From Erysipelotrichaceae bacterium (GTDB lineage: Bacteria; Bacillota_I; Bacilli_A; RFN20; CAG-449): DNA of 64,000 nt. How positions within the stretch are numbered: position 1 is the first letter of the stretch; each line of letters begins with the position of its first letter. The position numbers and the translations under genes were made by a program. This document shows, in pieces, positions 3,624 through 7,054 of the stretch. Below the pieces are notes generated by a model that searched no databases, was not told the DNA's origin, and saw only the letters and a list, made by a program, of their open reading frames with translations. The stretch is taken from assembly GCA_015059045.1 (NCBI GenBank), contig SVBD01000007.1, positions 1-64,000 of the forward strand, in the 5' to 3' direction.

Positions 3624-3851
3624 TTAATCTGCAATGTATGGAAGTAATGCCATTACACGCGCATTTTTGATAGCTTGTTCAACAGCTCTTTGGTGTTTAG
3701 CACAAGTACCTGTTACACGTCTTGGTGAAATCTTACCATTTGGTGAAATAAAGCGTTTTAATAAATCAACATCTTTATAGTCAATAGTTTGATTTTTATT
3801 TTTGCAGAAGATACAGACCTTTTTTCTTGGTCTCATTTTCTTAAATCCCAT
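3624..3851 (-). CDS. rpsR: Small-subunit ribosomal protein bS18
   Basis: 75 residues, normal length for bS18. The start [20 protein letters not shown] carries the CxxC-type segment of zinc-binding S18 variants, and the conserved core is present ([20 protein letters not shown]). It is the last gene of the rpsF-ssb-rpsR operon, an order conserved across Bacillota. S18 pairs with S6 on the platform of the 30S subunit. It ends upstream of the terminator at 3530-3560. Confidence 0.97.
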
Positions 3852-3904
3852 GTTTTTTCCTACCTTTCCTTCTCTTTACAGAGAACACATAAATAATTAT
3901 TTAC

Positions 3905-4351
3905 CTAGAATGGTAAATCATCATCTGTGACATCGATAGAAGAAACGTTTGCTACTGATGGTTCTTCAACAACTGGATCTGGTTGGTAACCATCTACGCT
4001 AGGTTCAACTAATGTTGGAGCCGCATTTTCTTCTTTTCTTTCTAAGAATTGTACAGAGTCACAAATAACTTCAATTATAGATACACGACGTCCATCTTTA
4101 GAATCATAAGTACGTTGATTTAATCTACCTTCAACGCCCACTAAAGAACCTTTGTGAGTGAAACGAGCAACATTTTCTGCTTGTTGATTCCAAATTGTAC
4201 ATGGAATGAATGATGTTGTCTTTTCTCCATTTGGGCCTTTTACACGGTTATCAAGAGCTACAGTGAAGGATGCTACTGATGTTCCGTTAGCGGTTTTTCT
4301 TAATTCTGCATCTTTTGTCATGCGTCCAACTAAAACTACACGATTAATCAT
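3905..4351 (-). CDS. ssb: Single-stranded DNA-binding protein
   Basis: 148 residues with the OB-fold at the N-terminus (MINRVVLVGRMTKDAELRKT, TSFIPCTIWNQQAENV) through about residue 105, a short flexible linker, and the C-terminal acidic tip ending DDDLPF, which recruits replication and repair partners. It coats single-stranded DNA during replication and repair. Located between rpsF and rpsR as in most Bacillota. The Shine-Dalgarno GGAGGAAAGAAAAT precedes the ATG. Confidence 0.97.
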   Translation of the reverse strand: MINRVVLVGRMTKDAELRKTANGTSVASFTVALDNRVKGPNGEKTTSFIPCTIWNQQAENVARFTHKGSLVGVEGRLNQRTYDSKDGRRVSIIEVICDSVQFLERKEENAAPTLVEPSVDGYQPDPVVEEPSVANVSSIDVTDDDLPF

Positions 4352-4381
4352 ATTTTCTTTCCTCCTAAATCATTTAAAGGG

Positions 4382-4666
4382 TTATTTTGCAATAACTAAA
4401 TGACGAAGTACGTTTGTGTTAATTTTAGCAACTCTGCCGAATTCTTCGACTACTTTTGGATCTGAAACAGTTGCGTCAACTACAACATAATATCCCTTAG
4501 CTTGTTTTTTGATTTCGTATGCTAAATCTCTTAAACCCCATTCGTTTACGTTGTCGATAGTACCTCCATCAACAGTAAGAATGTCATTTAATTTACCGAT
4601 TAATTCGTTACGATTAGCATCGTCAATGTCAGCTTTTAAGATATACATAATTTCGTATTTTCTCAT
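4382..4666 (-). CDS. rpsF: Small-subunit ribosomal protein bS6
   Basis: 94 residues, normal length, with the S6 ferredoxin-like fold signature (MRKYEIMYILKADIDD, VNEWGLRDLAYEIKKQAKGYY). It forms a dimer with S18 in the 30S platform. First gene of the rpsF-ssb-rpsR operon. Strong Shine-Dalgarno GGGAGGTG precedes the ATG. A promoter with exact 17-base spacing lies at 4745-4773, leaving an untranslated leader of about 70 bases that can fold. Confidence 0.97.
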   Translation of the reverse strand: MRKYEIMYILKADIDDANRNELIGKLNDILTVDGGTIDNVNEWGLRDLAYEIKKQAKGYYVVVDATVSDPKVVEEFGRVAKINTNVLRHLVIAK

Positions 4667-4833: not shown

Positions 4834-6861
4834 TTACCCATTTTTTATTTGTTTTTTTATTTTTTCTTGTTCAAGAAGCTTTTTTCTAACGTTTTTATAA
4901 GCTAATCTAGCGCCACTTTTATCATACTCTTCTATAGTTGATAGATTTAACGCTTCTTCAATATTACCAACTTCTAAACTCATTGTTTCAATATATTTTC
5001 GCATCAACGTTTTAATACTTTCTTTATCGAACTTTTCAAAAGTAATTATTTTTGTAATTCTAGACATTAAAGATGAACCTAAAATCTTTTCTAATTCAAC
5101 ATTATTTTCTTCGTGTTTTTCACTTGTTAAATATCCTTTAAAAGTTTTATAATTATTCTCAAAAACGCTTGAAATTAATATAAAAACTGCATTTTTACAA
5201 TTTACCTTATTTCCGCGATTATCATAAAAATATCCTTTATCAAACACATCTAAAAAGAAGTCTTTAATTTCATTTAATCCTTTATCAAATTCTTCAATAA
5301 TTACAAACGAACTAGGGTTATCATTTAATCCTTTAACCAAAGGAGAAACCGCCTCTAAATAAGTGTTAGATGATCCATTAATTAGTTTGTTTAATCCATT
5401 TAAATCCTTATAGCAATTTAAGTTTATTATTATCGGATTTGTTTTTTGATAATAAGAAGCAATTATATTTGCACACAACGATTTTCCACAACCTGAAGGA
5501 CCATTAAATAAAAATACTTTTACAATATCATTTTTAGGGGATTGAAGCTTATCAATTATTTCAAACTCATCAACAATTTGTTCGATCGCTCTTTCTTGAC
5601 CAACAACTTCATTTAGCAACTTTTGTTCTAGTGATTCTATTTTCCTATTACCTATATTTATTTTATAGAAAACCTCGAATGTTTCTTTAATGTTTTCGCT
5701 AGTTAAATGACTCTTTGCAATAACGCACGAATTATCTAATACATCTATTGCTTTATCAGGAAATTTCAAGTTCAATAAATGCCTATCACATAGTTCTACT
5801 ATATCTTTTAACAAATAGTTATCAATTTTAATTCGATAATGCTTCTCATAAATTGGTTTAATTTTTTCAAGAATATCTAATGTTTCCTCTTTTGTAGATT
5901 CATTAATTCTTATTAGTTGGAATCTTCTTTTTAACGCTTTATCCTTTTCAAAAGTTGCATTAAATTCTTCTTGGGTTGTCGCTCCAATAATTTGAATTTC
6001 TCCTCTTGATAAATAAGGCTTTAAAATATTTGCAGCATCAATTGCCCCTTCTGCGCCACCTGCTTTAACAATAGTATGTATTTCATCAATAAATAATATT
6101 GCATTACCATCTTCATGAACTTTCTTAATAATCTTTTTTATTTTCTCCTCAAATTCACCTCTATACTTAGTTCCCGCTACTGTTGAAGCAATATCTAATT
6201 CATATATGGTTTTCCCTTTTAATAAAGGGATTTTATTATCAAGTACTAATCTTGCTAGTTCTTCAACTATCGCACTTTTACCTACACCCGGTTCACCAAG
6301 TAATATTGCATTAGGTTTATTTCTTCTACTTAACGCATTTATTAATTGTTTTAATTCAGATTCTCTACCAATAAGAGGATTTAATACATTAACTCCCATT
6401 AAATGTAAATCTTGAATGGTTGTTAATTCTGATTTTTTCTTTTTTGTATTGTTAATTGCTTTAGTTATTATACTTAGATTTACTTTATTTTTAATAAGTA
6501 ATTCTTGGGCGACGTTTTTATTAGATATAAGGGATAAAGCAAGAGTATCTACACTAACTAAACTCTCTTTAGCTTTGTCTGAAAGTTTAATTGAATCTGT
6601 TAATAATTCTTTTAATTCAAAAGTGTATTGAACATATAAATTAGTATTATCTTGTTCTTGATATAAGTTTTGAATTATCGGATAAAAAGAATAATAATCT
6701 ATTTTATATTTTAATAATTCTTTAGAAAGAATATTATCACCCAACTTCAAAAAGCTTAATAATAAATGTTCACTTCCTACAGTAGGATGATTAAATTCAA
6801 ACGCTAAAGCTTCCGCGATTGAAATTATTCTTTGAGCACCACTAGAAAATTTTTCAAGCAT
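4834..6861 (-). CDS. ClpC/ClpA-like Hsp100 ATPase lacking the middle domain
   Basis: AAA+ unfoldase with two ATPase modules. The N-domain (about 1-140) begins MLEKFSSGAQRIISIAEALA. Module D1 has Walker A GEPGVGKS at 189-196, pore loop GTKYRGEFE near 230 and Walker B LFIDEIH at 256-262. Module D2 has Walker A GPSGCGKS at 454-461. D2 is divergent: its Walker B reads VIIEEF instead of the usual LLDEI, and the GYVGY-type pore loop is missing. The coiled-coil middle domain normally between D1 and D2 of ClpC is absent, as D1 runs from DKAIDVLDNSC straight into the D2 linker. This explains the length of 675 against about 810. No ClpP-binding VGF/IGF-type tripeptide is obvious. No ctsR, mcsA or mcsB lies beside it. 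Function as a ClpP partner is therefore uncertain. Confidence 0.8.
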   Translation of the reverse strand: MLEKFSSGAQRIISIAEALAFEFNHPTVGSEHLLLSFLKLGDNILSKELLKYKIDYYSFYPIIQNLYQEQDNTNLYVQYTFELKELLTDSIKLSDKAKESLVSVDTLALSLISNKNVAQELLIKNKVNLSIITKAINNTKKKKSELTTIQDLHLMGVNVLNPLIGRESELKQLINALSRRNKPNAILLGEPGVGKSAIVEELARLVLDNKIPLLKGKTIYELDIASTVAGTKYRGEFEEKIKKIIKKVHEDGNAILFIDEIHTIVKAGGAEGAIDAANILKPYLSRGEIQIIGATTQEEFNATFEKDKALKRRFQLIRINESTKEETLDILEKIKPIYEKHYRIKIDNYLLKDIVELCDRHLLNLKFPDKAIDVLDNSCVIAKSHLTSENIKETFEVFYKINIGNRKIESLEQKLLNEVVGQERAIEQIVDEFEIIDKLQSPKNDIVKVFLFNGPSGCGKSLCANIIASYYQKTNPIIINLNCYKDLNGLNKLINGSSNTYLEAVSPLVKGLNDNPSSFVIIEEFDKGLNEIKDFFLDVFDKGYFYDNRGNKVNCKNAVFILISSVFENNYKTFKGYLTSEKHEENNVELEKILGSSLMSRITKIITFEKFDKESIKTLMRKYIETMSLEVGNIEEALNLSTIEEYDKSGARLAYKNVRKKLLEQEKIKKQIKNG

Positions 6862-6970
6862 ATAAGTTTCCTTTCAATAATAAATTTATGACGTCTCAAG
6901 AAGAATTATGGGCAAAATGCATTTTTTTAAACTAAAGAATGTTGTTCTTAGTGCCAAAAAGGTAAATGCA

Positions 6971-7035
6971 AAGTGTCACTTGACAAAAAAACAATTGTCA
7001 ATTGGTGTTTTGCAAGCACTAAAATCGTGTATAAT
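6971..7035. promoter_or_regulatory. Promoter and palindromic operator candidate of the HTH-DUF4349 operon
   Basis: AAGTGTCACTT (6971-6981) is a perfect 5-base-arm palindrome, and TTGACAA (6980-6986) with TTGTCAA (6995-7001) is a 7-base inverted repeat. A TATAAT lies at 7030-7035, 20 bases before the start codon. The nested symmetry next to an HTH gene suggests autoregulation; the divergent clpC-like gene starts 110 bases away and may be controlled too. Confidence 0.5.
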
Positions 7036-7054
7036 TTAATTAGAGGTGGTAAAT

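Follow-up and report, generated by a model that had tools for sequence, protein, structure and literature searches.

The open reading frame at 4834..6861 (minus strand) of the window, the whole 64,000-nucleotide stretch of DNA that was analysed, encodes a ClpC-type Hsp100 ATPase of 675 amino acids without middle (M) domain. Its layout, its relatives and its distribution indicate that it probably belongs to a ClpCP protease which is independent of adaptors and dominated by the first AAA+ ring (D1), with the second ring (D2) acting as a weak docking ring. All features of the protein given below lie on the minus strand as well. Pfam recognised Clp_N, AAA, AAA_lid_9 and, as a weak AAA_2 match, D2. 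The Clp N-domain (PF02861; residues 1-140, 6442..6861) adopted a helical double repeat in the AF2 model. D1 with its lid extended over residues 155-400 (5662..6399) according to Pfam and the motif alignment, and D2 over residues 406-675 (4837..5646), its fold kept and its catalytic set eroded. All motifs of D1 were intact, that is Walker A GEPGVGKS, Walker B ILFIDE, the pore loop GTKYRGE and the Arg finger, and the invariant columns of alignment A1 were nearly all located within this domain. The N-domain repeat and the two AAA+ rings of ClpC were thus present; ClpC of S. aureus and B. subtilis headed the PDB sequence matches, and ClpC-ClpP complexes were the best fold matches of the AF2 model.

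The original prediction that the middle domain is gone and that D1 passes into D2 within about 35 residues was borne out. D1 ended in DKAIDVLDNSC (residues 369-379), D2 began after 34 aligned residues, and the AF2 model contained no long coiled coil, which is absent from the junction where the middle domain would be expected (residues 380-405, 5647..5724). This junction counted 34 residues as compared to 90-103 in M-bearing Bacilli ClpC (family f17); a Lachnospiraceae ClpC had 105 and E. coli ClpA 48. Our sample comprised 147 genomes of the order (family codes f1-f8, the window's family being f1), and since 27 of them encoded full-length M-less orthologues, the architecture is not due to chance.

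D2 had been described as degenerate, and this held for part of its catalytic set. Walker B (FVIIEE, 5290..5307) indeed carried Glu at the Asp place in the alignment, with the catalytic Glu kept, the sensor-1 Asn was replaced by Val566, and the GYVG pore loop was lacking as predicted, NTYLE (5353..5367) standing there with its Tyr retained. Walker A (GPSGCGKS, 5479..5502), Arg finger R601 in the LMSRI region (5056..5070) and the Arg of sensor-2 GAR, however, were intact. Between the window protein and its orthologue in G030, D2 was 50% identical and D1 87%; a canonical pair showed 64% and 79%, respectively. D2 was under purifying selection in close pairs (dN/dS 0.03-0.04 for G022/G033/G048) and is thus not a free-running pseudodomain; the ratio was about 0.23 for the window/G030 pair, where dS is saturated. 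Further catalytic residues of D2 were lost in G039 and G041, both of which have ClpP. In the predicted structure of the G039 protein, whose D2 is the most decayed among the orthologues, this domain was nevertheless folded and the loop at the docking position disordered.

The VGF/IGF tripeptide was missing too, as had been noted: no [VILM]G[FYW] occurred anywhere in the window protein. At the ClpP-docking position lay a low-confidence loop (residues 569-584, 5110..5157; pLDDT < 50), predicted to be disordered and containing FKGYL with K575-G576-Y577 at its tip. It aligned with the MGY, IGY, MGF and LGF loops of sister families. KGY retains the Gly-aromatic part of the docking motif and falls short of the hydrophobic-G-F form of ClpC. 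Within the window's family the Gly is variable, as KNN and KSY in the closest relatives show, and when the loops of f1 were read individually only the window protein had Gly-aromatic at the tip; a count of 9/14 for xG[FYWL] in this family was rejected because an upstream NYGY inflates it. The docking motif of S. aureus ClpC is AGF, its first residue varies, and the exchanges G672D and F673D abolish ClpP binding (PMC12521514). Since the motif tolerates a change of the first residue, yet Gly and Phe matter in S. aureus, we regard KGY as a possible, unproven contact with ClpP.

In a tree of D1, from which canonical B. subtilis ClpC was left out, the M-less Bacilli proteins formed one clade (support 99/97) that was separate from ClpA and from M-bearing ClpC. 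It adjoined M-bearing Bacilli ClpC of f17 (92/83), with ClpA outside at moderate support (80/71), and also included a very long row, L065 of f27. The D1 of the window protein grouped with ClpC and not with ClpA, ClpB or ClpL. Within the M-less clade, f1, genus g35 of f4 and one f5 member made up a subclade (100/99); its members lack the docking tripeptide, and the D2 motifs of many of them were eroded. The M-less ClpC of f20, f8, f6 and most of f3 had a canonical D2 and loops such as MGY, IGY, MGF, LGF or VGF, and their genomes have ClpP as well. The M domain was probably lost in an ancestor common to several Bacilli families, and much of the D2 catalytic set later, in the window's lineage. 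D2 Walker B was lost in 4/17 of the M-bearing f17 proteins, so decay of D2 is not strictly tied to loss of the M domain. A scan of genome contigs gave 13 loci, mostly from uncultured Bacilli or Clostridia MAGs, and we found nothing relevant in the open-access literature on an M-less ClpC with an inactive D2.

Strong ClpP matches (E < 1e-60) were found in 24/147 genomes of the order, all 24 among those with full-length M-less ClpC, which amounts to 24/27 of these genomes versus 0/120 of the others. Fisher's test, which treats the genomes as independent although they are related, gave p of about 1e-24, or 1e-16 when every ClpP match was counted, ten other genomes having weaker, divergent or partial matches. 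Tandem divergent ClpP-like genes, several with an in-frame stop codon, were observed in f4 genomes without M-less ClpC (G049:C14, G077:C28, G085:C4). No genome of the order had ClpX above the cut-off (0/147; 10/14 controls exceeded it), nor MecA or CtsR (0/147 each, controls matched); in the McsB search no control genome matched, and the absence covers MecA and CtsR only. An AAA_2 search of the window genome returned four proteins: the window protein, ClpB, a 782-aa frame taken as Lon and a RarA-like protein. There was no docking tripeptide in the examined stretch of this ClpB. Since ClpX is absent from the 147 genomes and the other AAA_2 proteins are ClpB, the putative Lon and a RarA-like protein, M-less ClpC is the only ClpP partner detected. 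Three genomes had M-less ClpC without detected ClpP: G036, 94% complete and with D2 Walker B lost, G017, 86% complete and with D2 Walker A gone, and G076, 61% complete. Genomes in which ClpP was not found thus tend to have the more eroded D2.

The window genome encodes ClpP as a single match (G000:C7:9458-9991; L085:1962-2552). Ser98 and His123 of the triad were kept and Asn172 occupied the catalytic Asp place; several f1 relatives also had Asn at this position, others Asp. The same Asp to Asn change in Listeria ClpP1 favours inactive heptamers, a state that partner subunits overcome (PMC5361862). No second ClpP was seen in the window genome, so this ClpP would either have little activity or require docking of ClpC for it. 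At position 82, where B. subtilis has Phe, f1 members had Asn, Ala, Ile, Ser or Lys. A co-evolution of this pocket with the docking loop was considered and dropped, since families whose loops are canonical were variable at position 82, too (Leu, Ser, Tyr, His).

Contacts of the M domain keep canonical ClpC in an inactive state; S. aureus ClpC in which this domain is mutated or deleted degrades without an adaptor, and M-domain mutants that activate ClpC are toxic together with ClpP (PMC5699869). For the window protein we infer a hexamer in which the N-domain would recruit substrates, D1, with its intact Walker, pore and Arg-finger motifs, would be the main motor, and D2 would complete the channel as a weak ATPase ring and dock on ClpP with its flexible loop (residues 569-584). 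It should need no MecA-type adaptor because the M domain that packs ClpC into its inactive resting state is missing, which fits with MecA not being found in the order. The predicted adaptor independence is therefore plausible, from the missing M domain, the absence of MecA and CtsR and the S. aureus deletion; McsB lies outside this evidence. The loss of the off-switch may be balanced by a D2 of reduced power and a ClpP with an Asn triad. As to what a weakened D2 can be expected to do, single Walker B mutants in either ring of ClpE may serve as a guide: their degradation is strongly reduced, partial activity remains on soluble substrates, and disaggregation is lost (PMC13125188).

Several observations count against a ClpCP protease. 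The window loop reads KGY with a Gly that its family does not conserve, and the corresponding Gly and Phe are essential for ClpP binding in S. aureus (PMC12521514); G039 and G041 have ClpP and yet lost more catalytic residues of D2; G036 has the M-less protein and no detected ClpP at high completeness; and a Walker B mutation in either ring of ClpE is costly for degradation (PMC13125188). A rival reading follows the original proposal of an adaptor-independent, perhaps ClpP-independent unfoldase and sees in the protein an unfoldase or disaggregase like ClpL or ClpB, with ClpP working with something else. The missing [VIL]GF tripeptide, the poorly conserved docking loop, the M-less architecture and the presence of the protein in G036, G076 and G017 would all agree with it. 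We nevertheless consider it unlikely: the window genome itself encodes ClpP, every strong ClpP occurred alongside M-less ClpC (24/24), and with ClpX in 0/147 genomes ClpP would be left without an ATPase partner. Of the three exceptions, G017 and G076 are less complete genomes, and G017 and G036 have each lost a D2 Walker motif.

The same erosion could alternatively reflect a ClpCP in decay within a genome-reduced lineage, in which both D2 and the ClpP triad are disappearing and only marginal activity is left. The much faster divergence of D2 than of D1 in the family, the single ClpP with Asn172 (in Listeria ClpP1, this exchange leaves the protein caught as inactive heptamers; PMC5361862), and the many genomes of the order without strong ClpP match point in this direction. 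Decay is nonetheless improbable in view of the low D2 dN/dS in close pairs, the intact reading frames in near-complete family members, the conserved D1 and the retention of Ser98 and His123 in ClpP. Because the M-less protein occurs almost only with ClpP, for which it is the sole partner found, a simplified ClpCP protease is the probable reading rather than a ClpP-free chaperone. More tentatively, and with somewhat less than even confidence, ClpC of genome-reduced Bacilli might repeatedly have become a one-motor protease cap, with the M off-switch lost, D1 working, D2 a passive docking ring and, in f1, the docking contact rewired along with ClpP.

rpsF-ssb-rpsR (3624..4666, minus strand) lay downstream on the same strand, and tblastn of the flanks recovered this arrangement next to clpC across the family. 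Directly upstream (window 6862-6925) most f1/f4 genomes shared an element resembling GGCAATAATT-N(about 12)-CATAAATT. It is not CIRCE and was not recognised as a CtsR site, and no CtsR operator was recognised by eye before clpC. The clpP promoters had a different common element, GTATATTTTT. Between clpC and a divergent HTH gene at 7046 lay an inverted repeat, TTGACAATTGTTTTTTTGTCAA (window 6978-7001), of which the other genomes compared showed no counterpart. CIRCE-like TTAGCACTC repeats preceded clpB in the window genome (L145) and several relatives; none were found before clpC in the genomes compared.

Removal of M-domain control makes canonical ClpC lethal (PMC5699869), whereas the gut Bacilli lineage described here lives without M domain and without detected MecA or ClpX. 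It illustrates a way of simplifying a Clp protease, and its natural one-motor variants could be used to study the role of the second AAA+ ring. The M-less ClpC of f12/f10 (Bacilli; L117-L124) make this question directly testable, as their D2 is Walker-less and their docking loop kept. Like the window protein they belong to the M-less clade, have lost D2 catalysis and co-occur with ClpP; they differ in D2, which lacks both Walker A and Walker B and retains GYVG and an xGF/xGL loop, and in the presence of ClpX in their genomes. In Clostridia, M-less ClpC-like proteins (L099-L103) share the N-D1-D2 layout, but mostly have a canonical D2, an IGF loop and a longer junction (44-48). Their loss of the M domain may be independent since they group with a Lachnospiraceae ClpC.

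Among the established Hsp100 proteins, ClpL is also a stand-alone member found in the same order, and the one ClpL examined had no ClpP tripeptide; it has, however, a long middle region, a canonical D2 and a D1 outside the ClpC/ClpA clade. E. coli ClpA shares the missing M domain and the N-D1-D2 layout, and the ClpA family TIGR02639 was the best NCBIfam match of the window protein. The score of 366.9 bits nevertheless remained below the cut-off of 993, the protein fell outside the ClpA clade, its junction is shorter (34 versus 48), and ClpA has an intact D2 with an IGL loop. ClpC of B. subtilis and S. aureus is closest, with the same Clp N-domain and two AAA+ rings and the best PDB matches in sequence and fold. 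It is set apart by its M domain, its uneroded D2 and its VGF/AGF motif, and by the adaptor MecA and the regulator CtsR, neither of which was found in the window's order. The window protein probably acts as a ClpCP unfoldase but lacks two defining features of ClpC, the M domain and the docking motif, so that M-less ClpC-type variant is the most fitting name for it.
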